This document shows, in pieces, positions 491 through 64,000 of a DNA stretch of 64,000 nucleotides. The stretch is from positions 1,612,001 through 1,676,000 of the forward strand of contig CP032931.1 in the NCBI GenBank assembly GCA_003666485.1, in the 5' to 3' direction. This stretch comes from Levilactobacillus brevis (GTDB lineage Bacteria; Bacillota; Bacilli; Lactobacillales; Lactobacillaceae). The first letter of the stretch is position 1. Each line of letters begins with the position of its first letter. Under the pieces are notes generated by a model, which did not search any database, had not been told where the DNA came from, and was given only the letters and a program-made list of their open reading frames with translations. Position numbers and translations under genes: made by a program.

Positions 491-688
491 TGACCGCCTT
501 ACCGTTCGCTAAAGATGGGCCGGTACGCTGTGGGCGGACGGGTCGAGCCACAGTGCGGTCTCGACACCTCGCCTTTGAGCCGAAGTTCGCGTCTCAAAGA
601 CGCCAGTTTATCTCAGAAGCATGGGTCCCATGCCTCTGAGAAAACTCCCACGGCTGAGCCCATCTTTAGCGAACTCTCGGCTACGGTG
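491..688 (+). repeat. Structured intergenic element A, copy 1
   Basis: GC-rich, palindromic, non-coding. The closing stem TTCGCTAAAGATGGGC (505-520) pairs perfectly over 16 bp with 658-673. Inside are hairpins using GTCGAG/CTCGAC, CTTTGAG/CTCAAAG and TCTCAGA/TCTGAGA. A conserved GCTGTGGG ... CCCACGGC pair extends the closing stem inward. It is the reference orientation for the A family. Bases 689-811 after it show no gene. Confidence 0.8.
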
Positions 689-920: not shown

Positions 921-1095
921 TAGCCGTGAGTGAAGTGAAATCTAGGCTCAGCCGGGGAATTTACCAGCGCTTTTGCTGGCAAATTGGTGACTTTGAGACG
1001 TGATTTTCGGCTCAAAGCAAGGGTCGAGACCTTGGCTCGGCCCGTCCTCCCCCAGCGTTCCAGCCTAGAGTTTCACGTAACGGTAGGCGGCCAGG
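921..1095 (-). repeat. Structured intergenic element A, copy 2
   Basis: Reverse-orientation A copy and the most divergent one. Its closing stem has a different sequence (TCTAGGCT with AGCCTAGA, plus GTGAAA with TTTCAC) but still pairs, with one bulged base. The left end has GTAGCC-like TAGCCGTGAG; the right end has the family GGTAGGCGGCCAG. Confidence 0.75.
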
Positions 1096-3594: not shown

Positions 3595-3613
3595 GTGGGT
3601 ATTGTGCCAACTT

Positions 3614-3806
3614 GGCCGCCTTACCGTCCACTAGATATGAGTTGGAACGCGGTGGGTGCCGAGGCGAGCCAAGAAGCGGTCTCGCCCCTTAACTCGGAGC
3701 CGGCAGCCCGCGTCTCCGAGTTACCAGTTCCCTAACCGGCGTGACCCGTGCCGCTAAGGGAACTCCCACGGCTGAACTCATATCTAGCGGACTCTCGGCT
3801 ACGGTG
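3614..3806 (+). repeat. Structured intergenic element A, copy 3
   Basis: Closing stem CTAGATATGAGTT with AACTCATATCTAG; inner hairpins GGCGAG/CTCGCC, AACTCGGAG/CTCCGAGTT and AGTTCCCT/AGGGAACT. Every stem differs in sequence from copy 1 yet pairs. It is followed after about 90 bp by element B copy 1, forming an A-B unit. Confidence 0.8.
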
Positions 3807-3898
3807 ATGCTGGTCAAGTCCACTGATCCAGCCCACGCGGTGTGTTACCGCGGGTATTGGCCCCGGTTATACCAATGACAACTGAGTGATCAATACTG

Positions 3899-4124
3899 CC
3901 GGAGGAGGCCAGGGGTGTAGCCAGCTGTGTCGACGGTGTTGGCTGAGGTCTTTTCTCAGCCTACAGCGTGGGGCGCCTTTGGAGACTTGCGGGTTGTGCA
4001 AGGCTTCAAAGCGAGGTGGAAGCCCGCGCCTGGGCTGGAGCCGTCCCCCATAGCAGGTGGAACCCCTGGCAGCCGTAGGCACTGGTTTGGCAAAAGTAAT
4101 GGGAGTGGACGGTAAGGCGGCCAG
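3899..4124 (+). repeat. Structured intergenic element B, copy 1, with A-type right border
   Basis: Outer arms GGAGGAGGCCAGGGG and CCCCTGGCAGCCGTAGG can pair. The first inner hairpin is GGCTGAG...CTCAGCC. After the B palindrome the sequence ends with GGACGGTAAGGCGGCCAG, the same border as reverse A copies. Open frames here on both strands are by-products of the GC-rich palindromes. Confidence 0.7.
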
Positions 4125-9547: not shown

Positions 9548-9740
9548 CTGTCCGCCTTACCGTTCGCTAGATATGAGTCGGAACGCTGTGGGCGCCGGGT
9601 CGAGCCAAAAAGCGGTCTCGCCCCTCAACTCGGAGCCGGTAACCCGCGTCTCCGAGTTGTCAGTTTTCTAACCGGTAAAGCCCACCGCTAAGAAAACTCC
9701 CACGGCTGAACTCATATCTAGCGAACTCACGGCTACGGTG
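9548..9740 (+). repeat. Structured intergenic element A, copy 4
   Basis: The closing stem GTTCGCTAGATATGAGT (9562-9578) is perfectly complementary over 17 bp to 9710-9726. The hairpins AACTCGGAG/CTCCGAGTT and AGTTTTC/GAAAACT are present. The copy lies between the pepD stop codon and the apparent pepD terminator, so it is probably transcribed. Confidence 0.8.
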
Positions 9741-9923: not shown

Positions 9924-9940
9924 GATTTGGTCAGCTAAAG

Positions 9941-10217
9941 ATTGAAAGTAGACTTAACGCGTTGATTCCCAGAACGACAGTGTTCTGTCCACTAAAATTA
10001 GTGAAATCAGGAGCCTGCGTCAGCCAAGGTTCCAACTGTTCTGAGGAATATTGCCAGCTTGGGAAGAGGTCTGTCGGTCCGCCCACCGCGTTCCGACCCA
10101 TATTTGGCGGACGGTAGGCGGCCAGTTTCTACTACGAAGCTGTAAATGACTAATTTTAACGTCATGAACTGCATGGTGACGACGACTCTGGCCGGCTTTT
10201 GTCTTGCAATCTTCAGT
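9941..10217 (-). repeat. Internally deleted A-B repeat unit
   Basis: Read on the minus strand, this begins with the A-side arm (TTGCAAG near 10203-10210, AAAATTAGTC), passes the A border CTGGCCGCCTACCGTCCGCC, then jumps into the end of element B (GGTTCC, GGCTGACGCAGGCTCC) and the B-side arm ending at 9941. The whole inside of A and most of B are missing. The same outer arm sequences flank the fuller unit at 13101-13680. Confidence 0.65.
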
Positions 10218-10350
10218 TTGGACAGATTTAGGGCAACCTGAAGTCTCCAGAAATCTTCACAAATTGGCCTAAGTCTGCACAAAACTTTTCGTAATAATAA
10301 GATTATAGTAATCAACACGATGATTCATTTATATAACGGAGGATTAAATT

Positions 10351-13082: not shown

Positions 13083-13167
13083 CTTGGGCATAAATAAAGT
13101 TTGAAAGTAGATTTAGCGCGTTGATTCCCGGACCGACAATGTTTTGTCCATGAGATTGGTGAAAATA

Positions 13168-13352
13168 GGAGCCTGCGGCAGCCAGGGTTCCGCCTGCTCT
13201 GGGGAACACCTCCAGCCTGAGAAGCGGTCTTCCGGTTCGCTTGGAAGTCTGGCCAAGCCCACCAGTCTTCCAAGTCGTCCCACGCTGTAGGCTGAGAAAA
13301 AACCTCAGCCAACACCGTCGACACAGCTGGCTCCACCCTGGCTGCCTCCGGC
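13168..13352 (-). repeat. Structured intergenic element B, copy 2
   Basis: Outer arms GGAGCCTGCGGCAGCCAGGG (13168-13187) and CCCTGGCTGCCTCCGGC can pair. Inner stems are CTTGGAAG/CTTCCAAG and GGCTGAG/CTCAGCC. The B-side arm continues left to about 13101 and matches the arm at 9941. Confidence 0.75.
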
Positions 13353-13450
13353 AAGTTGACGTCTGTCAATGACATTGTATTGGCTGGGAGTTAGTCGATA
13401 GGTTAACTGCTGCCAGGGGCTAAGTTGGCAATTGGTAGTTAATCACTCAT

Positions 13451-13640
13451 GTAGCCGAGAGTCCGTCAAATATGGGTTCAGCCGTGGGAGTTTCCTTAGC
13501 GGCGCGGTTCATGCCGCTTAGGAAACTGGCGTCTTTGAGACGTGTTTTTCGGCTCAAAGCGAGGCCGAGACCGCTTCTCAGGCTCGGTCCGGTCCGCCCA
13601 CAGCGTTCCAACCCATATTTGGTGGACGGTAGGCGGCCAT
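13451..13640 (-). repeat. Structured intergenic element A, copy 5
   Basis: The closing stem CAAATATGGGTT/AACCCATATTTG is present, with the A-side arm continuing right to about 13680 (GACTAATCTTAAC). Together with B copy 2 it forms a full reverse-orientation A-B unit. Confidence 0.8.
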
Positions 13641-13695
13641 TTCCCACTATGAAGCTGTAAACGACTAATCTTAACAGGTTCTAACCGATTTTCAC

Positions 13696-15047: not shown

Positions 15048-15243
15048 GTAGCCGAGAGTTCGTTAGATATGAGTTCAGCCGTGGGAGGATTCTAAGCGGC
15101 ATGACCTGATGCCACTTAGAATCCTGGCGTCTTTGAGATGCGTTCTTCGGCTCAAAGGCGAGGGCCGAGACCGTTCCTTGGCTCGGTCCGTCCGCCCGCC
15201 CACCGCGTTCCGACTCATATCTAACGGACGGTAAGGCGGCCAG
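15048..15243 (-). repeat. Structured intergenic element A, copy 6
   Basis: Closing stem GTTAGATATGAGT with ACTCATATCTAAC, and the longest P4 hairpin of the set (GGATTCTAAG/CTTAGAATCC). No B partner is adjacent. Confidence 0.8.
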
Positions 15244-20466: not shown

Positions 20467-20519
20467 GAGTGGAACCAGTGCCTTTTGGCCCAGGTTTCGG
20501 CAATATAAGTTCGGAAATA
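20467..20519 (+). repeat. Element D half, copy 1
   Basis: GTGGAACCAGTGCCTTTTGG, then CCCAGGTTTC, then GCAATATAAGTTCGG. The same block recurs at 51645-51700 (minus), 55343-55411 (plus) and 56497-56555 (minus). Here it lies between the ptsI stop and its terminator. Confidence 0.6.
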
Positions 20520-20521
20520 CC

Positions 20522-20557
20522 AATGAGTTTGGGTGCTTTATCCCAAACTCATTTTTT
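20522..20557 (+). terminator. ptsHI terminator
   Basis: AATGAGTTTGGG (20522-20533) pairs perfectly with CCCAAACTCATT (20542-20553), followed by T. Confidence 0.9.
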
Positions 20558-20788: not shown

Positions 20789-20976
20789 GTAGCCGAGAGT
20801 TCGTCAAATATGGATTCAGCCGTGGGAGTTCCCTTAACGGTGGGGTTTTACCGTTTAGGGAACTGGCGTCTTTGAGACGTGATTTTTCGGCTCAAAGCGA
20901 GGCCGAGACCGCTTCTCAGGCTCGGTCCGGTCCGCCCACCGCATTCCAGTCCATATTTGGCAAACGTTAGGCGGGC
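20789..20976 (-). repeat. Structured intergenic element A, copy 7
   Basis: Closing stem CAAATATGGA with TCCATATTTG; P4 hairpin AGTTCCC/GGGAACT. It lies directly beside a shortened B copy and a further A copy, giving an A-B-A arrangement on the minus strand. Confidence 0.8.
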
Positions 20977-20999
20977 CGGATCGTAACTAAAGGTTGCAA

Positions 21000-21166
21000 G
21001 TACAAAAGCACTTGATAATACTCAGCTGACAAGGATTGTGAACATGAAATTAGTCCACGCCCACCACCTGCGGCTGTCAGAGATTCCGGTAGCTATGGGA
21101 AACGTCGGCGGCCTATGGAGCGATTCGCCGGCGTCACAGCAACCTACACCTCTGACTGCCTCCGGT
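21000..21166 (-). repeat. Element B, copy 3 (shortened) with flank
   Basis: The outer arms (CTGCGGCTGTCAGAG and CTCTGACTGCCTCCGG) and the flank CTCAGCTGACAAGGATTGTG match copy 5 at 55129-55340 in reverse, but about 80 bases of the interior are missing. Confidence 0.65.
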
Positions 21167-21247
21167 TACGTCGGTGGTTAACCACAAAATTAACAGAAAA
21201 ATCGCTGAAATGGCAACGTTCATCCACATTAGTGGACAACCTGTCAC

Positions 21248-21427
21248 GTAGCCGTGAGTGAGCTAAATTTGGACTCAGCCGTGGGCGTTTTCAAGTGATC
21301 TACTTGGAAACGGGCGTCTTCGAGACGTGGCTTTCGGCTCGAAGCGAGGTTGAAGACCGCACTTTGGCTTCGACCGGTCCTTCCCACAGCGTCACGGTCC
21401 AAATTTGGCGAACGGCAAGGCGGCCAG
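21248..21427 (-). repeat. Structured intergenic element A, copy 8
   Basis: Closing stem AAATTTGGAC with GTCCAAATTT; P3 hairpin CTTCGAG/CTCGAAG. It is nearly identical to A copy 10 and is joined to B copy 3 by a recognisably similar linker. Confidence 0.8.
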
Positions 21428-37244: not shown

Positions 37245-38596
37245 GAGAGCGTAAAATATCTTGTGTAAATGCATAAAAGATTTCTGAATTGTATAGAAAT
37301 AGGGAATGCCTTCCCTTATGATATTTAGTAACCACAGAAAACATCACAGGAGGCATTCCCCATGAATGAACTTACCACAGAAATTATCGCTGCACTAGCC
37401 CAAAAGCAAGATTTGGACGAAGTTTTTCGTCACCACCTCGAAATTGCGATTAACCAGCTGCTTCAAACCGAATTGGTAGAGTTTTTGGGTTACGAACGCT
37501 ACTCATACGCTGGGACTAACACTGGTAATAACCGCAACGGCAGTTATGAGCGCTCGTTTGATACGAAGTACGGCCAACTTAACTTAACCATTCCTCGAGA
37601 TCGCAATGGCCGGTTTAAAAATCATACCTTGCCAGCCTACGGTCGGCACAGTGATAATTTAGAAACAACGGTCATTCAGTTGTATACCAAGGGAATTACC
37701 ACTGCTGAAATTGCCGAACTCATTGAGAAAATGTACGGTGCTCACTACTCCAAAGCCACGGTTTCCAACATGACTAAAGCCGTCAATGAACAGGTTCAAG
37801 CTTTCCAGCAACGTCGACTGGCTTCACAATATGCGGCCATCTTCTTAGATGCCACTTACTTGCCGTTAAAGCGGGATACCGTTCAAAAAGAAGCCGTTCA
37901 TATTGCGATTGGCATTCGTCCAGATGGTACGAAAGAAGTGCTGAACTACCAAGTGGCGCCAACGGAATCGACTGGAATCTGGACTGAACTGCTGGGAACC
38001 TTGATCAAGCAGGGCGTTAAAGATGTGCTGTTGTTTGTGGCCGATGGGTTAGTTGGTTTGGATGAAGGCTTGAATCGGAATTTCCCTAAAGCCAAACGAC
38101 AACGTTGCCTGGTTCATGTTGGGCGGAATCTGATGAACAAAGTTCGCGTAAAAGACCGCAAGGCCGTGATCAGTGACTTTAAACAAGTTCATCGGGCCGC
38201 CAACCGTGAAGCAGCCGAACTGAAACTGAATGAGTTCGCCAACAACTGGCATCAGACCTATCCCAAATTAATCAAAGATCTGCTTAAAATGCCGAATTTA
38301 CTCACTTTCATGGACTTTCCACCAGCTATCCGGCAATCACTATACTCCACTAACCCGATTGAGAACTTTAATAAGCATCTCAAGCGCACCACCCACCACA
38401 AAGAACAATTTCCAACGGAAGATTCACTGGATCGCTTCCTGGTTTCTCAGTTTAATGTTTATAACGAGAAGTCTCTGAAGCGGATCCACCGAGGGTTCAA
38501 AGGACTCCAGGACACCTTGGAAGCATCATTTATTTAAGTTAGATACATATTATATGTACGAAGGCATTTCGTTTACACAAGATTCTTGACGCTACC
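37245..38596 (+). mobile_element. IS256-family insertion sequence, copy 1
   Basis: 1352 bp. The ends share an imperfect 27-bp inverted repeat whose inner part ATCTTGTGTAAA is identical in both ends. It encodes one transposase on the plus strand. It is the same element as 58304-59655 (opposite orientation) and 63895-64000 (same orientation). Confidence 0.95.
37362..38537 (+). CDS. IS256-family (Mutator) transposase
   Basis: The 391-residue DDE transposase appears intact: Asp in IFLDATYLPLK, Asp in LFVADGLVGLDEG, and Glu in YSTNPIENFNKHLKR. CLVHVGRNL is the family C-x2-H motif. CAGGAGGC lies ahead of the ATG. The protein is identical to that of copy 2, which argues for recent activity. Confidence 0.96.
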   Translation: MNELTTEIIAALAQKQDLDEVFRHHLEIAINQLLQTELVEFLGYERYSYAGTNTGNNRNGSYERSFDTKYGQLNLTIPRDRNGRFKNHTLPAYGRHSDNLETTVIQLYTKGITTAEIAELIEKMYGAHYSKATVSNMTKAVNEQVQAFQQRRLASQYAAIFLDATYLPLKRDTVQKEAVHIAIGIRPDGTKEVLNYQVAPTESTGIWTELLGTLIKQGVKDVLLFVADGLVGLDEGLNRNFPKAKRQRCLVHVGRNLMNKVRVKDRKAVISDFKQVHRAANREAAELKLNEFANNWHQTYPKLIKDLLKMPNLLTFMDFPPAIRQSLYSTNPIENFNKHLKRTTHHKEQFPTEDSLDRFLVSQFNVYNEKSLKRIHRGFKGLQDTLEASFI

Positions 38597-41534: not shown

Positions 41535-41682
41535 GGAATCGCTCCGTTTCGACTGATTAATTATAGTGTTGCCTTTTATCTTAGTAATTATTTGGCTGTG
41601 GGTCAACGGTTCTTTGAGAAATTTACCGGCGCTTCCTTTTAAGTCGGCCGGATTTGTGTTAAAATTCTTGAGTTATGAGTCA

Positions 41683-41779
41683 ATTCCCGATAGGATTCAC
41701 GCGTCTTGTGAAGCTGCCTTGTAACCGAATGGCGTTGAGATTATCGGTCAACTCGCCGTCTACTATATCTAGGGGGAAT
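41683..41779 (+). promoter_or_regulatory. SMK box (SAM-III) riboswitch of metK
   Basis: The leader contains ATTCCCGATAGGAT (41683-41696), a short hairpin, GCCTTGTAACCGAA, and GGGGGAAT (41772-41779). ATTCCC can pair with GGGGGAAT, which includes the metK ribosome site, so S-adenosylmethionine binding would block translation. This is the known SMK arrangement of Lactobacillales metK. TAAAAT at 41660-41665 is the likely -10 box. Confidence 0.9.
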
Positions 41780-41784
41780 ATCCA

Positions 41785-42972
41785 TTGCAAGAAAGACATT
41801 TATTTACTTCAGAATCCGTTTCTGAGGGCCATCCCGACAAAATCGCCGATCAGATCAGTGACGCTATCTTAGATGCGATGCTGGAACAAGATCCCGATTC
41901 CCGGGTTGCCTGCGAAACGTCCGTCACGACGGGGCTTGTCCTGGTCTTTGGTGAAATTTCGACCAAGGCCTACGTCGACATCCAAAAAGTGGTTCGCGAA
42001 ACTATTAAGGAAATCGGCTACACGGATGGGCAATACGGCTTTGATGGCGACAACTGTGCCGTCCTCGTGGCGATCGACGAACAATCACCTGATATCGCGC
42101 AAGGGGTCGATGACTCTTTGGAGACGCGTGAAGGGGATGAAGATCCACTCGACAAGATTGGTGCCGGGGACCAAGGCCTCATGTTCGGCTATGCCGTCAA
42201 TGAGACGCCCGAATTAATGCCATTGCCAATCGAATTGAGCCACGCGTTGATGCGGCGAATTGCTAAGCTGCGGAAGGCGGACGTGATCGATTACTTACGG
42301 CCCGATGCCAAGGCTGAAGTCACAGTTGAGTACGACGACAACGAACGCCCAGTCCGGGTGGACACGGTTGTGCTGAGTACCCAACACGATCCTGACGTGA
42401 CGTTGGATCAAATTCGCCAAGACGTGATCGAACAAGTCATCAAGCCAGTAATTCCAGCTGACCTGTTGGACGATCAAACGAAATACTTCATTAACCCCAC
42501 GGGCCGCTTTGTGATTGGTGGACCACAAGGGGATGCCGGGTTGACCGGTCGGAAGATCATCGTCGACACGTACGGTGGTGCTGCTCACCATGGTGGTGGG
42601 GCCTTCTCCGGGAAGGACGCTACCAAGGTGGACCGTTCTGCCAGTTACGCCGCCCGGTACATTGCCAAGAACATTGTGGCGGCCGAACTCGCTACCAAGT
42701 GTGAAGTGCAGATTGCCTACGCCATTGGGGTAGCGGAACCTGTTTCCGTCTACATTAACACGTTTGGCACTGGTACCGTGGCTGAAAGCAAATTGAACGC
42801 TGCCGTTCGGCAATTGTTTGACTTGCGGCCAGCAGGTATCATCCAAATGCTTGACTTGAAGCGGCCAATTTACAAGCAGACCGCCGCATACGGTCACTTT
42901 GGCCGGACCGACATCGACTTACCTTGGGAACATCTGGATAAGGTCGACGCCTTAAAAGCAGCTGTGAAATAA
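41785..42972 (+). CDS. metK: S-adenosylmethionine synthetase
   Basis: The 395-residue enzyme makes S-adenosylmethionine from methionine and [19 protein letters not shown] is the methionine/ATP site at the N-terminus, [12 protein letters not shown] the central motif, and [17 protein letters not shown] the C-terminal P-loop-like motif. Translation starts at TTG, with GGGGGAA upstream inside the riboswitch stem, giving negative feedback by its own product. Normal length. Confidence 0.97.
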
Positions 42973-43059: not shown

Positions 43060-43141
43060 TGCTAATCACTAAAACTAGTGAAACCCAACTGCCGCCGGCC
43101 ACCGCGTTCCGCCCCATATTTGGTGAACGGCAGGTGGTCAG
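43060..43141 (-). repeat. Deleted A-B repeat remnant
   Basis: ACTAAAACTAGTGAAA resembles the B-side arm near 9998-10013, and CCACCGCGTTCCGCCCCATA with the GGTGAACGG border is the end of A. The interior of both elements is missing. Confidence 0.5.
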
Positions 43142-43358
43142 CTCGAACCAAGTCGTTTTGTAGTGCCAAGGTGCACGACGATTTAGCTGAAATTTACTGG
43201 CGCAATCAGAGGTTCAAAGAAAAAATTTAAGCTAACGACTTGTTTTTTTGACGGTTAGCCGTGATAATTGGTTTATTACTGAAAAACAGAAATTGGGCAG
43301 TAGCAGCAATTGGCTACGTAGATTCGTTGTGTGGTGGGGCCAACGTGAGGAGGAAATT
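43142..43358. other. Upstream region of the second MFS gene
   Basis: No clear promoter pair; an open frame continues upstream of the MFS start but without a ribosome site. Confidence 0.35.
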
Positions 43359-45293: not shown

Positions 45294-45397
45294 GTTTTGT
45301 CTGAGAGTTGTTTAGTAAATTTAAACGGTCGACGCAAATCTGATAACAGGTGCTGTCTAAAATTCGGCGAGCCGGCTGCAAGTGTTCTGCTAAAGGT

Positions 45398-45544
45398 TGC
45401 AAGTTTAAAAGTAGCTAAACTTATGGTGACACCAGGGTTTACAGGGATAAAATTAGTCTTTGAACGTCATGTAGTCCGTACTGGCCGCCTTACCGTCCGC
45501 CCACAGCGTTCCGGCCCATATTCGGCGAACGGTAAGGCGGCCAG
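45398..45544 (+). repeat. A-side arm plus solo border palindrome
   Basis: The A-side arm (GGTTGCAAG, AAAATTAGTC, GTAGTCC) leads into CTGGCCGCCTTACCGT (45481-45496), which is perfectly complementary over 16 bp to ACGGTAAGGCGGCCAG (45529-45544). The whole A interior is replaced by about 32 bases, leaving a border-to-border palindrome. Confidence 0.7.
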
Positions 45545-45565
45545 TCCACACAAAAATCGTCAGGA

Positions 45566-47355: not shown

Positions 47356-47549
47356 CTGGCCGCCTACCGTCCGCCAAATATGGGTCGGAACGCGGTGGGC
47401 GGACGGGTCGAGCCAAAGTCCGGTTTCGACACCTCGTCTTTGAGCCGAAGGTCGCGTCTCAAAGACGCCAGTTACCTAACCAGCAAATAGCGCTGCTAAG
47501 GTAACTCCCACGGCTGAACCCATATTTGACGAACTCCGGCTACAAGGTG
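47356..47549 (+). repeat. Structured intergenic element A, copy 9
   Basis: Closing stem CAAATATGGGT with ACCCATATTTG; hairpins CTTTGAG/CTCAAAG and AGTTACC/GGTAACT. It carries an A-side arm from about 47310 and is followed by B copy 4, making a full plus-strand A-B unit. Confidence 0.8.
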
Positions 47550-47641
47550 ATTACCAATGGACAACTAATTTAACTCCTAGTGTTAGCTACTTTTTTCACT
47601 GGCTTGGAGGTTAACATACAGTTACCGAGAAACACCATCCC

Positions 47642-47826
47642 GCCGGAGTCAACCAGCAGTGCAGCCAGCTGTGTCGGCCCAGTTAGCTGGCGTTTCTGGC
47701 CAGGTTACTGGGCGGGACGACTTGAGAGACTGGTGGTTTTTGCCAGGCTTTCAAGCGAACCGGAAGACCGCTCCTCAGTCTGGAGGTGTTCCCCAGAGCA
47801 GGCGGAACTGTTGGCTGACGGAGGCA
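47642..47826 (+). repeat. Structured intergenic element B, copy 4
   Basis: The inner stems CCCAGT/ACTGGG and CTTGAGAG/CTTTCAAG replace those of other B copies with different sequences but kept pairing. GGCTGACGGAGG closes the outer stem. Confidence 0.7.
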
Positions 47827-51480: not shown

Positions 51481-51644
51481 GCTTTTGGACGTTCTTGCTT
51501 GTGACGGTGAGAACTGACTCATGTCTGGGATGATGGTGCGCTTGTCTCCCTTGCTGAGCCGGACACGCGTATCTGGATGGATGATTAGAGCTCACTGACA
51601 ATTACGGCCATAGGAAATGTTTGGGGCAAAATATCCAAAGTCTT

Positions 51645-51700
51645 TGGTATCTCCGTCCTTACATTGCTGAAACCTGGGCCAAAAGGCAGCTGGTTCTACG
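51645..51700 (-). repeat. Element D half, copy 2
   Basis: In reverse: GAACCAGCTGCCTTTTGG, CCCAGGTTTCAGCAATGTAA, then GATACCAAAGACTTTGG, parallel to 20467-20533. Confidence 0.6.
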
Positions 51701-54720: not shown

Positions 54721-54770
54721 AAAGAGTGGGACAACAGGCGCTTAGCTGGCGAGCATTAAGGCTGGTAAGC
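54721..54770 (+). repeat. Element C half next to a complete A-B unit
   Basis: GAGTGGGACAACAGGCGC then TTAGCTGGCGAGCATTAAG. It matches the left half of the C/D palindrome at 56497-56632 in reverse, and is partly complementary to the D half at 55343-55411. Confidence 0.6.
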
Positions 54771-54867
54771 CAATAACAAAAGGTTGCAAGATTGAAAACA
54801 GCTAAATTCATAGTGACGCCGAGGTCTACGGGGACAAAATTAGTCTTTGAACGCCATGTAGTCCGTG

Positions 54868-55048
54868 CTGGTCGCCTTACCGTTCGCCAAATTTGGACCG
54901 TGACGCTGTGGGAAGGACCGGTCGAAGCCAAAGAGCGGTCTTCAACCTCGCTTCGAGCCGGAAATCACGTCTCGAAGACGCCAGTTTCCAAGCAGACCAC
55001 TTGAAAACTCCCACGGCTGAGTCCAAATTTAGCTCACTCACGGCTACA
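54868..55048 (+). repeat. Structured intergenic element A, copy 10
   Basis: Closing stem AAATTTGGAC/GTCCAAATTT; P3 hairpin CTTCGAG/CTCGAAG. The A-side arm (GGTTGCAAG, AAAATTAGTC) begins at 54782. Confidence 0.8.
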
Positions 55049-55128
55049 CAGTAGATTACCCGTTAATGTAGATGTATATCACCTTTTCAGCGATGTTCCT
55101 GCCAACTTTATGGTTGTCACTGACGTAA

Positions 55129-55300
55129 CCGGAGGCAGTCAGAGGTGGAGGTTGCTGTGACAACGGTGTTAGCTGAGCGTTTTTTCTCAGCTTACACCGT
55201 GGGACGTGTTTGGAGATTGACGGGGTTCGTCAAGCTTGGCGGACCGTTCCGCAGGCCGCTGGCGTTCCCCATAGCTACCGGAACCTCTGACAGCCGCAGG
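55129..55300 (+). repeat. Structured intergenic element B, copy 5
   Basis: First hairpin ACGGTGT...ACACCGT with AGCTGAG/CTCAGCT inside; outer arms CCGGAGGCAGTCAGAGG and CCTCTGACAGCCGCAGG. It is the full-length form of shortened copy 3. The long open frame here is a by-product of the palindromes. Confidence 0.75.
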
Positions 55301-55342: not shown

Positions 55343-55411
55343 GAGTATTATCAGTTTAAGCGGAACCAGCTGCCTGTTGGCTCAGGTTTCAGCCATATAA
55401 GTTCGAAGAGC
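55343..55411 (+). repeat. Element D half, copy 3
   Basis: TTATCAGTTTAAGCGGAACC, AGCTGCCTGTTGG, CTCAGGTTTC, ATATAAGTTCG. With the C half at 54721 it brackets the A-B unit. Confidence 0.6.
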
Positions 55412-55767: not shown

Positions 55768-56448
55768 TTGTCAGCAAAAAAGCGGCAATTCGGCAGTACC
55801 ATGGCGTGGCTTTGGTTGATCCTACTAGTCATTATTTTAAATATCGTGCAACTACCTTTGTTATTTCTTGGCCACGGAACGGTAGGTCAGCGGTTCGTTT
55901 GGGCAGTCATCTACCTAGCTGGTTTTGCGGCCACCATCGCCTTGGGGTTGTGGGTCTACCGGCAAGCTCATCCGGTGAAGTGGCAACGGCTGACAGGGAA
56001 AGATTGGTGGCTGATGGTCAAGGCGTACGGCTTCGTGATCCTGGTCGAAATGATCCTGGGCATCGTCAATAACCTGCTCTATCATCAGACCAGCACAGCC
56101 AATAACCAGGCCATCTCGTCCTTTATGGGACAGGGGACCTTGACCATGGTCATGTTGAGCCTGACCGCCGTCTTAGCCAGCCCCGTGATTGAAGAGATCA
56201 CGTTTCGGGGGATTCTGGTAGACGGCTGCTTCCCGGCGAACATGTTTTGGCTACCAATCGTGGTCAGTGGCGTGGCCTTTTCTATCGTGCACATGAGCAC
56301 CAATCCCGTGAGCTGGCTGATCTACGCCATGATGGGCGGGACGTTCGCCTACGTGTATAAGCGGACGGGCAAGCTACAGAGCACGATTTTTCTCCATGGA
56401 TTCAACAATTTGATTGCGGTCGGGGCTATGTTGCTCACACTGCATTAG
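55768..56448 (+). CDS. CPBP-family intramembrane metalloprotease
   Basis: The 226-residue membrane protein has about six spans and the CAAX-protease/bacteriocin-processing motifs EEITFRG (EExxxR), FSIVHMST (FxxxH) and HGFNN. In lactobacilli such proteins are linked with bacteriocin immunity or surface-protein processing, but no bacteriocin gene is visible here. It starts at TTG with GAGAGGA upstream; the next ATG would cut the N-terminus by only 11 residues. Confidence 0.85.
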   Translation: MSAKKRQFGSTMAWLWLILLVIILNIVQLPLLFLGHGTVGQRFVWAVIYLAGFAATIALGLWVYRQAHPVKWQRLTGKDWWLMVKAYGFVILVEMILGIVNNLLYHQTSTANNQAISSFMGQGTLTMVMLSLTAVLASPVIEEITFRGILVDGCFPANMFWLPIVVSGVAFSIVHMSTNPVSWLIYAMMGGTFAYVYKRTGKLQSTIFLHGFNNLIAVGAMLLTLH

Positions 56449-56491: not shown

Positions 56492-56496
56492 TGTCT

Positions 56497-56632
56497 CCGA
56501 ATATCTGGTGTTGAAACCTGGACCAAAAGGCAGCTGGTTCCGCTTAAAACTGATAAGCAAACAATCCAAACCCGGGATTATTCGCTTATCAGTCTTAATG
56601 CTCGCCAGCTAACCGCCTTTTGTCCCACTCTC
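56497..56632 (-). repeat. Complete C/D palindromic element without A-B cargo
   Basis: Read in reverse: GAGTGGGACAAAAGGCGG, TTAGCTGGCGAG, ACTGATAAGC, a loop of about 25 bases, GCTTATCAGT, GGAACCAGCTGCCTTTTGG. C and D halves pair with each other (ACTGATAAGC/GCTTATCAGT is perfect). There is no A-B insert here, unlike 54721-55411. Confidence 0.65.
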
Positions 56633-58303: not shown

Positions 58304-59655
58304 GGTAGCGTCAAGAATCTTGTGTAAACGAAATGCCTTCGTACATATAATATGTATCTAACTTAAATAAATGATGCTTCCAAGGTGTCCTGGAGTCCTT
58401 TGAACCCTCGGTGGATCCGCTTCAGAGACTTCTCGTTATAAACATTAAACTGAGAAACCAGGAAGCGATCCAGTGAATCTTCCGTTGGAAATTGTTCTTT
58501 GTGGTGGGTGGTGCGCTTGAGATGCTTATTAAAGTTCTCAATCGGGTTAGTGGAGTATAGTGATTGCCGGATAGCTGGTGGAAAGTCCATGAAAGTGAGT
58601 AAATTCGGCATTTTAAGCAGATCTTTGATTAATTTGGGATAGGTCTGATGCCAGTTGTTGGCGAACTCATTCAGTTTCAGTTCGGCTGCTTCACGGTTGG
58701 CGGCCCGATGAACTTGTTTAAAGTCACTGATCACGGCCTTGCGGTCTTTTACGCGAACTTTGTTCATCAGATTCCGCCCAACATGAACCAGGCAACGTTG
58801 TCGTTTGGCTTTAGGGAAATTCCGATTCAAGCCTTCATCCAAACCAACTAACCCATCGGCCACAAACAACAGCACATCTTTAACGCCCTGCTTGATCAAG
58901 GTTCCCAGCAGTTCAGTCCAGATTCCAGTCGATTCCGTTGGCGCCACTTGGTAGTTCAGCACTTCTTTCGTACCATCTGGACGAATGCCAATCGCAATAT
59001 GAACGGCTTCTTTTTGAACGGTATCCCGCTTTAACGGCAAGTAAGTGGCATCTAAGAAGATGGCCGCATATTGTGAAGCCAGTCGACGTTGCTGGAAAGC
59101 TTGAACCTGTTCATTGACGGCTTTAGTCATGTTGGAAACCGTGGCTTTGGAGTAGTGAGCACCGTACATTTTCTCAATGAGTTCGGCAATTTCAGCAGTG
59201 GTAATTCCCTTGGTATACAACTGAATGACCGTTGTTTCTAAATTATCACTGTGCCGACCGTAGGCTGGCAAGGTATGATTTTTAAACCGGCCATTGCGAT
59301 CTCGAGGAATGGTTAAGTTAAGTTGGCCGTACTTCGTATCAAACGAGCGCTCATAACTGCCGTTGCGGTTATTACCAGTGTTAGTCCCAGCGTATGAGTA
59401 GCGTTCGTAACCCAAAAACTCTACCAATTCGGTTTGAAGCAGCTGGTTAATCGCAATTTCGAGGTGGTGACGAAAAACTTCGTCCAAATCTTGCTTTTGG
59501 GCTAGTGCAGCGATAATTTCTGTGGTAAGTTCATTCATGGGGAATGCCTCCTGTGATGTTTTCTGTGGTTACTAAATATCATAAGGGAAGGCATTCCCTA
59601 TTTCTATACAATTCAGAAATCTTTTATGCATTTACACAAGATATTTTACGCTCTC
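58304..59655 (-). mobile_element. IS256-family insertion sequence, copy 2
   Basis: 1352 bp, the same length as copy 1, in the opposite orientation. The ends carry the same inverted repeats. Confidence 0.96.
58363..59538 (-). CDS. IS256-family (Mutator) transposase
   Basis: The 391-residue sequence is identical to the transposase at 37362-38537, with the same DDE residues. Being intact and identical, it could serve all copies in trans. Confidence 0.96.
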   Translation of the reverse strand: MNELTTEIIAALAQKQDLDEVFRHHLEIAINQLLQTELVEFLGYERYSYAGTNTGNNRNGSYERSFDTKYGQLNLTIPRDRNGRFKNHTLPAYGRHSDNLETTVIQLYTKGITTAEIAELIEKMYGAHYSKATVSNMTKAVNEQVQAFQQRRLASQYAAIFLDATYLPLKRDTVQKEAVHIAIGIRPDGTKEVLNYQVAPTESTGIWTELLGTLIKQGVKDVLLFVADGLVGLDEGLNRNFPKAKRQRCLVHVGRNLMNKVRVKDRKAVISDFKQVHRAANREAAELKLNEFANNWHQTYPKLIKDLLKMPNLLTFMDFPPAIRQSLYSTNPIENFNKHLKRTTHHKEQFPTEDSLDRFLVSQFNVYNEKSLKRIHRGFKGLQDTLEASFI

Positions 59656-63253: not shown

Positions 63254-63904
63254 ATGAAAAAGAAAAAGCCAGTCTATATGGGCAAAAGGTATGACTACGT
63301 TGTTTATTTAAGTTATCCTGGAGAGGAACAGTTTGATGAATTAGGAAAACTGATATTGAATGATTACTTACACAAACACAGCAGTATAGAGAAAAATGAT
63401 TTAAATTTAAAAACGAACAGATTGAATGACTACTATGCATCTATATATATCATTAACAAGCAAGAACATGTAAAGAAGCGTATTCTAGTTGCGGCAAATG
63501 ATGGAGCATTGTTTCCTACGGTGGATTTAGCGATTGATGCGAATGAAAATGCGCAGTCTATTTTCGAAGAAGAAGGAGTTTACGGTTCCTATGGTATAAG
63601 GGATCGTAAGCTGTTGGATAATATCATCGAGAGTACAAAGCATTCTGTTTATTTCGGAGAAGATCAAATACCCTCGTTGCTTAGAAAAGCAGCTGTTTAT
63701 TGGTGGAAATTTGCACATTATCAGGTTTTTATGAATGGAAATAAACGAACGGGACTACTAGTGGCTAGTACATTTATGTATCTTAATTATATGATGTTAG
63801 ATTTCAATCAAGATAGAATGTACGAAATCTCGAAGGGTATCGCTAGAGATGAACTAACAGAAGATGATGTTTATGGATTTTTGTTGAAGAATACGAGAGC
63901 GTAA
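63254..63904 (+). pseudogene. Fic/Doc-domain protein, end replaced by IS256
   Basis: The 216-codon frame has a Fic-like core: VFMNGNKRTGLLVAS near residues 160-175. The usual motif is HPFxxGNKR; here the aligned residue is Gln (HYQVFMNGNKR), so the catalytic His may be missing or shifted by two. The native 3' end is lost: the last codons and the stop (ACG AGA GCG TAA) lie in the IS end at 63895. The candidate target copy is AAGAATAC (63887-63894). Start ATG 63254 is chosen from the GGAG ahead of it; codon use is strongly AT-biased. Confidence 0.7.
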
Positions 63905-64000
63905 AATATCTTGTGTAAATGCATAAAAGATTTCTGAATTGTATAGAAATAGGGAATGCCTTCCCTTATGATATTTAGTAACCACAGAAAACATCACAGG
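63895..64000 (+). mobile_element. IS256-family insertion sequence, copy 3 (left end, cut by window)
   Basis: GAGAGCGTAAAATATCTTGT and the following bases match copy 1 from 37245 onwards. The transposase start would be about 12 bases beyond the window. Confidence 0.93.

Follow-up and report, generated by a model that had tools for sequence, protein, structure and literature searches.

What kind of unit is the block of about 600 bp, free of any coding gene, that recurs in a 64-kb window of the 3.10-Mb genome of Levilactobacillus brevis (G000), and what could move it? The original prediction held that two segments, A and B, lie in a fixed relative order at five places in this window, between conserved outer arms, and suggested that they form a mobile or recombining unit. 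The order was confirmed at all five places. The modules read B(+)A(+) at 13101–13680 and A(-)B(-) at 3613–4079, 47357–47824, and 54869–55300; the copy at 21067–21426 is oriented like that at 13101 and unlike the other three.

Module profiles were built from copies in several genomes (183 positions for B and 188 for A), and A and B were recognized as two folded modules of approximately 185 bp with fixed order and orientation. The pair reads B+ A+ in 53 of the 53 clusters having both modules, mostly at a spacing of 93–103 bp, in a set that comprises the window and loci from two genomes, retrieved by searching with the unit itself, and is not an unbiased sample. Two-module elements are approximately 585–645 bp long and consist of a left arm of about 80 bp, B, a linker of about 97 bp, A, and a right arm of about 90 bp. 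Their terminal inverted repeats, CTAAAGRTTGMAAG, are located about 80 bp beyond B and about 90 bp beyond A. The form AACTAAAGNTTGNAAG was found with zero mismatch in 21 of the 35 genus genomes (0 control matches), sometimes as inverted pairs 270–630 bp apart. The two-module elements are short, lack a transposase gene of their own, and, as a family, end in inverted repeats, as MITEs do. The conserved arms that had been predicted were recovered in this structure: GGTTGCAAG belongs to the terminal inverted repeat, AAAATTAGTC is located in the subterminal arm beyond A, and GCGCGTTGATTCCC, beyond B, runs outward to the second inverted repeat. The proposed unit was right in its mobile nature and too small in its extent, since the mobile entity also takes in the inverted repeats outside the arms.

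The copies in the window are listed in Table 1. The right edge of the 13094..13695 copy is approximate and lies immediately ahead of the stop codon of MucBP (13696). A right inverted repeat and a target duplication were looked for in this copy and neither was recognizable; we read it as an old remnant of the element, in which the left inverted repeat alone can still be seen. Several copies were absent from the original prediction, namely, the A-only copies, one internally deleted copy with both ends, and the fragments at 43091–43142 and 45390–45552. The family explains 11 of the 12 direct-repeat families of the window, and the remaining one is an IS256 copy.

Table 1 Coordinates of the element, its parts, its other copies in the window, and the intact insertion sequence (IS) sharing its ends.
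Feature	Position	Strand	Remarks
Old copy of the element	13094..13695	+	left inverted repeat, left arm, B, linker, A, right arm
Left terminal inverted repeat of this copy	13094..13107	+	12/14 positions of CTAAAGRTTGMAAG
Module B of this copy	13172..13352	+	
Linker B-A of this copy	13353..13450	+	
Module A of this copy	13451..13639	+	diverged inverted copy of B
Internally deleted copy, both inverted repeats	9935..10216	+	flanks 9926-9934 TTTGGTCAG and 10217-10225 TTTGGACAG, 8/9 identical
Copy	3613..4079	-	A 3613-3802, B 3898-4079; no inverted repeat within 3 mismatches
Copy	20987..21426	+	perfect left inverted repeat 20987-21000, truncated B 21067-21130, full A 21248-21426
Copy	47357..47824	-	A 47357-47543, B 47642-47824; no inverted repeat within 3 mismatches
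Copy	54777..55300	-	inverted repeat 54777-54790 (1 mismatch), A 54869-55047, B 55129-55300
Module A alone	15048..15242	+	
Module A alone	20789..20974	+	beside the 20987 copy
Module A alone	9549..9736	-	
Module A alone	491..684	-	
Module A alone, divergent	921..1093	+	
Fragment	45390..45552	+	perfect inverted repeat 45390-45403, 3' part of A 45495-45551
Fragment, 3' part of A	43091..43142	+	
Intact IS	G014, L167 2111-3669		1559 bp; both ends CTAAAGGTTGAAAG, 8-bp duplication CTGATTAA

Other features of the window were also recorded. An IS256-family IS is present in two 100%-identical copies of opposite orientation (37245–38596 and 58304–59655), with the start of a third at 63895–64000; it appears to be recently active and belongs to a different IS family from the partner of the MITE described below. 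Short intergenic inverted-repeat pairs that are neither A nor B were found at 54723–54776 and 56578–56631, at 20479–20548 and 51619–51688, and at 55355–55409 and 56494–56548. One of these pairs contains AGAGTGGGACAACAGGCG, and similar AGAGTGGGACAAAAG sequence was observed in gaps of two relatives, L. cerevisiae (L180) and, in reverse, L. brevis (L181). A SAM-III (SMK box) riboswitch lies at 41668–41787.

The insertion signature was investigated on 67 inverted-repeat pairs spaced 200–760 bp. Exact duplications of 6–10 bp flank 40 of them (18 of 7 bp, 17 of 8 bp, four of 9 bp, and one of 6 bp), and the mean was 0.77 and the maximum 5 when the right flanks were shuffled 1000 times. The other 27 pairs have no exact duplication, some being one base off, and part of the 67 are probably chance pairings. 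The target duplications are AT-rich and mostly 7–9 bp long, and many are shaped TT...AA (TTACGATAA, TTAGAACAA, and TTAAACAA). Among the 40 exactly duplicated elements, 29 hold B and A in the standard order, seven hold one module or part of one, and four hold none (E 1e-3). Both modules are therefore not needed for insertion, because elements with one module or none also carry exact duplications.

Orthologous sites were compared at loci found in 26 relatives by a search with the neighbouring MucBP-domain protein; 24 of these loci come from named species of Levilactobacillus, one from a Lactobacillus sp., and one from an uncultured Lactobacillus bin. The site was scored in the 13 relatives having the ATPase and MucBP genes as direct neighbours, and the other 13 loci, which are differently arranged, were left out. 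The ATPase–MucBP gap is about 740 bp long in the window, where it holds B+A+. It measures approximately 62–180 bp and holds no module in nine of the 13 relatives (L177, L180, L181, L187, L188, L190, L193, L195, and L196). In the other four, a single B-type match on the minus strand is present instead of B+A+; it is full in L176 and weaker and partial in L175, L178, and L179. In these last three the strand decides little, given that A itself is B in inverted form. One gap further upstream, the site of the 9935–10216 copy is empty in L. angrenensis (L177), with an unoccupied TTTGGT after a similar terminator hairpin. Hence, the empty orthologous sites by which the original prediction proposed to check mobility were found at both places, in a comparison between species rather than strains. 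The outcome that would have spoken against it, the same loci occupied everywhere, is contradicted by the nine relatives without a module.

The unit 13101–13680 with short flanks matched at least 57 places in its own genome, a count for which 40 of 273 first-look candidates were scored, and it matched 26 of the 35 genus genomes, its own included. The cores of A and B were searched as 18-base patterns with two mismatches allowed, using the reversed patterns as a control; the resulting copy numbers are lower bounds, as the patterns recovered 80% of the A and 72% of the B modules among aligned full-length copies of the window's genome. There were 162 matches to A, 80 to B, and 0 to the controls in the window's genome, which excludes chance as the source of the repeats. 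Across the genus, A was found in 23 and B in 24 of the 35 genomes, several genomes having few matches or none and those rich in the family having from tens to over 200; the numbers of B matches reached 226 in G002, the highest, and 193 in G014. Elsewhere in the genus, the controls matched once in G023 and twice each in G019 and G034.

Beyond the genus, the B core was detected in 33 of 397 Lactobacillaceae genomes, corresponding to 19 of 25 Levilactobacillus and 14 of 372 others. Thirteen of these 14 had 1–6 matches, and single matches outside Levilactobacillus are near background, because one control match was seen in each of eight of the 372 genomes. Both stretches fetched from G321, which had six matches, contain B modules, in opposite orientations (L228 and L229). 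G320, from another genus, had 82 core matches, and none were found in the other sampled members of that genus. All eight stretches fetched from it (L220–L227) contain modules, and two of them (L220 and L226) have the same ends, with the duplications ACAAACAA and TCAAAAAG. This abundance, together with the absence in congeners, points to horizontal spread followed by amplification, and a horizontal arrival and burst of the family in G320 is likely. A search of a plasmid collection with the unit gave no match.

The position relative to genes was analyzed for 72 module clusters from the window and the loci of G000 and G003 (76 clusters under other settings), with genes called as longest ORFs and not taken from annotation. 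After removal of ORFs lying mostly inside a cluster and of matches shorter than 100 model positions, 69 of the 72 clusters were flanked by ORFs on both sides, and two of the 72 overlapped a retained ORF by more than 60 bp, the elements being intergenic in nearly all cases. The 69 clusters comprised 25 between convergent genes, 43 between tandem genes, and one between divergent genes, as against 9, 38, and 23, respectively, of 70 gene pairs without a cluster (divergent versus the rest, Fisher p 4e-7). The simple reading of the scarcity between divergent genes is a loss of promoter-disrupting insertions.

An autonomous IS with the same 14-bp ends as the MITE was identified in G014. Its transposase matches NCBIfam NF049925 of the IS4 family (E 7.6e-141) and contains the YREK signature Y-2-R-3-E-6-K in MYARRWQIEGYFKVAK. 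The ISPepr1 subgroup is described (De Palmenaer 2008, PMC2266710) as having a length of 1500–1600 bp, ends of the form YT-AA-YTT---A, the YREK signature, direct repeats of 7–8 bp, and AT-rich targets. The G014 IS, with its CT ends, agrees in length, YREK signature, duplication length, and AT-rich target, and its ends match seven of the eight fixed positions, position 7 being G and not Y. Judged from its sequence, it fits the ISPepr1 subgroup of the IS4 family with one end position off. The MITE shares these ends and duplications, and it differs from the subgroup in having also 9-bp duplications, no transposase, and a different interior.

Relatives of this IS were found on plasmids. Those of Limosilactobacillus fermentum and Levilactobacillus brevis (L202 and L203), 46–47% identical, have the ends CTGAAACTTGAAAG, matching eight of the eight ISPepr1 positions, and the Limosilactobacillus fermentum copy has TAAACCTAA on both flanks. 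The Lactiplantibacillus plantarum plasmid NZ_CP035114.1 contains an unannotated, 69%-identical transposase relative in several pieces, whose left end (L201 956–969) is the same 14 bp as in the MITE and whose right end was not found in L201. G006 and G031 each have an open frame of 49% identity, and neither showed such ends when two mismatches were allowed. Within the window's genome no intact partner IS was detected, the best match being 94 residues at 53% identity, and the MITE family therefore looks stranded there. A separate set of 14 matches with equal scores on G000:C1 (e.g., 56000–56254 and 2843377–2843631), 440-aa open frames 25% identical to the ISPepr1-type transposase, is probably another recently active DDE-type IS.

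Taken together, we estimate at about 0.9 the probability that the element is a MITE family, for which inverted ends, target duplications, empty sites, and an IS with the same ends were observed, and which would be mobilized in trans by an ISPepr1-type IS. The shared ends and the duplication length suggest that this cross-mobilization is probably the work of the ISPepr1-type transposase, which would cut and paste the MITE; the copies would then be retained mainly downstream of genes, with promoter insertions being lost. The true mobilizer could instead be a different IS merely similar in its ends, as only one of the 35 genus genomes yielded a close and intact copy of the matching IS, far fewer than carry the MITE, although many of the assemblies are drafts that lose repeated IS. 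The identical 14-bp ends and the same duplication length speak against such an IS, as do the seven termini of one IS end in G017, which suggest recent activity. In G017, an identical stretch of 79 bp that starts at the inverted repeat forms one extremity of five contigs, and 77 bp of it form that of a sixth, as would be expected of a recently copied repeat collapsed in assembly; the internal copy (77 bp) adjoins a transposase C-terminus and was traced to the intact IS in G014. A 224-bp element of G013 (L120 2924–3147) also counts against a different mobilizer: no module was detectable in it, it is flanked by an 8-bp duplication, TAAGTGAA, and its subterminal sequence resembles both IS ends by eye, so that it probably did arise from the partner IS by deletion. 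We consider a different mobilizer improbable. The IS256 of the window was set aside as a partner for belonging to another IS family.

The interior of the MITE does not resemble what a deleted IS would leave. In three of the seven elements compared with the IS, similarity covers the terminal 14–24 bp, with nothing beyond but short weak matches (longest interior match 19 bp, E 0.01), and the idea that the element is a deletion derivative of the partner was rejected because no convincing interior similarity was found in these three. Alignment of A with B gave an average score of 22.2 in inverted orientation and 11.5 in the same orientation, as compared with 10.5 (sd 1.7) for shuffled sequences, and the inverted score was the higher one in 138 of 150 random pairs. 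These scores indicate that A arose as an inverted copy of B and has since diverged, and that the element is a large imperfect palindrome; its interior consists of one folded module and the inverted duplicate of that module. The two modules found in L107 (G002) were both classed as B, in opposite orientations, and none as A.

Such modules might instead encode a structured RNA, a cis-acting 3' end or a small RNA, that spread for its usefulness, with transposition being secondary. The fold is indeed strong (z -8.0 on the plus and -5.6 on the minus strand), and the clusters lie mostly downstream of genes. In hand-picked alignments of 49 copies each, out of 96 A and 92 B copies and with modules containing N or incomplete ends left out, both sides were changed with pairing kept in at least one sequence for 27 of the 40 pairs predicted for A and 21 of the 42 predicted for B. 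The covariation of the stems runs mainly from one Watson-Crick pair to another. Private compensated double changes numbered 16 in A and five in B, 21 in all, as against about 0.03 and 0.04 (about 0.07 together) expected under independence; private uncompensated states numbered 35 and 33. A selected RNA should, however, show a clear G-U excess on its own strand. Counted without a positive control, G-U pairs versus A-C mismatches were 62 versus 20 in A and 32 versus 46 in B, and one column alone accounted for 23 of the G-U pairs in A, as one did for 14 of those in B; A leans towards G-U and B does not, so that the strand of the element does not clearly behave as one selected RNA would. Furthermore, Rfam gave no match in the unit at gathering scores and none inside three other elements at E 0.1, the sole match being an L10 leader outside the element, and exact duplications also occur on elements without a detectable module. 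A structured RNA as the reason for the spread is therefore unlikely in our view. We lean towards palindromes kept by maintenance at the DNA level or inherited from structured master copies; arm-to-arm homogenization by template switching has been described (PMC3820800, PMC8604942). A more specific version, in which the interior is a self-maintaining folded DNA module, duplicated inversely, whose stems are held in Watson-Crick register by template-switch correction or by selection for a cruciform or single-strand fold aiding copying or tolerance, is a tentative proposal that we find possible but doubtful.

Two further explanations concern the nature of the whole element. Old regulatory or terminator features, fixed and vertically inherited at the same loci, would agree with the many decayed copies near stop codons and with the matches in 26 of the 35 genus genomes; the target duplications and the comparable relatives, of which nine lack the module and four are differently arranged, argue against them, and with the empty sites ruling out vertical inheritance this explanation is scarcely credible. 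REP/BIME sequences are 20–40 bp palindromes linked to the RAYT transposase. Palindromes of this type, spread by a Y1 transposase (RAYT) and not by a DDE transposase, would share with our element the mosaic of palindromic modules arranged together, the extragenic location, and the high copy number. The terminal inverted repeats, the target duplications of 7–9 bp, and the IS4-type partner with the same ends set the element apart from REP/BIME/REPIN mosaics, its modules measure about 185 bp, and this origin is very improbable.

The MITE reading also places the element among known systems. MIC231 of Bacillus cereus (IS231 type, IS4 family) is likewise non-autonomous and has the ends of an IS4-family IS, but it belongs with a different IS subgroup, and MIC231 mobile insertion cassettes carry passenger genes, which the Levilactobacillus element does not. 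ERIC, RUP, NEMIS, and Correia elements are MITEs that are similarly short, gene-free, intergenic, foldable, and of high copy number, with inverted ends; the Levilactobacillus element differs from them in its length of about 600 bp and in its two inverted copies of a multi-hairpin module of about 185 bp joined by a fixed linker. A literature search, outside which most subscription papers lay, revealed no MITE described in Levilactobacillus or lactobacilli that matches the element. Within the known class of the MITEs, the element forms an apparently new family.

Since some two dozen genomes carry the family in dense copies, they allow the fate of a MITE, its scarcity between divergent genes, and structure-preserving mutation of palindromes to be measured, and the analysis names a likely mobilizer, the ISPepr1-type IS. 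The modules look like strongly covarying structured RNAs and may mislead RNA-discovery pipelines. If maintenance at the DNA level is true, their strong covariation would be a warning case of covariation without a functional RNA.
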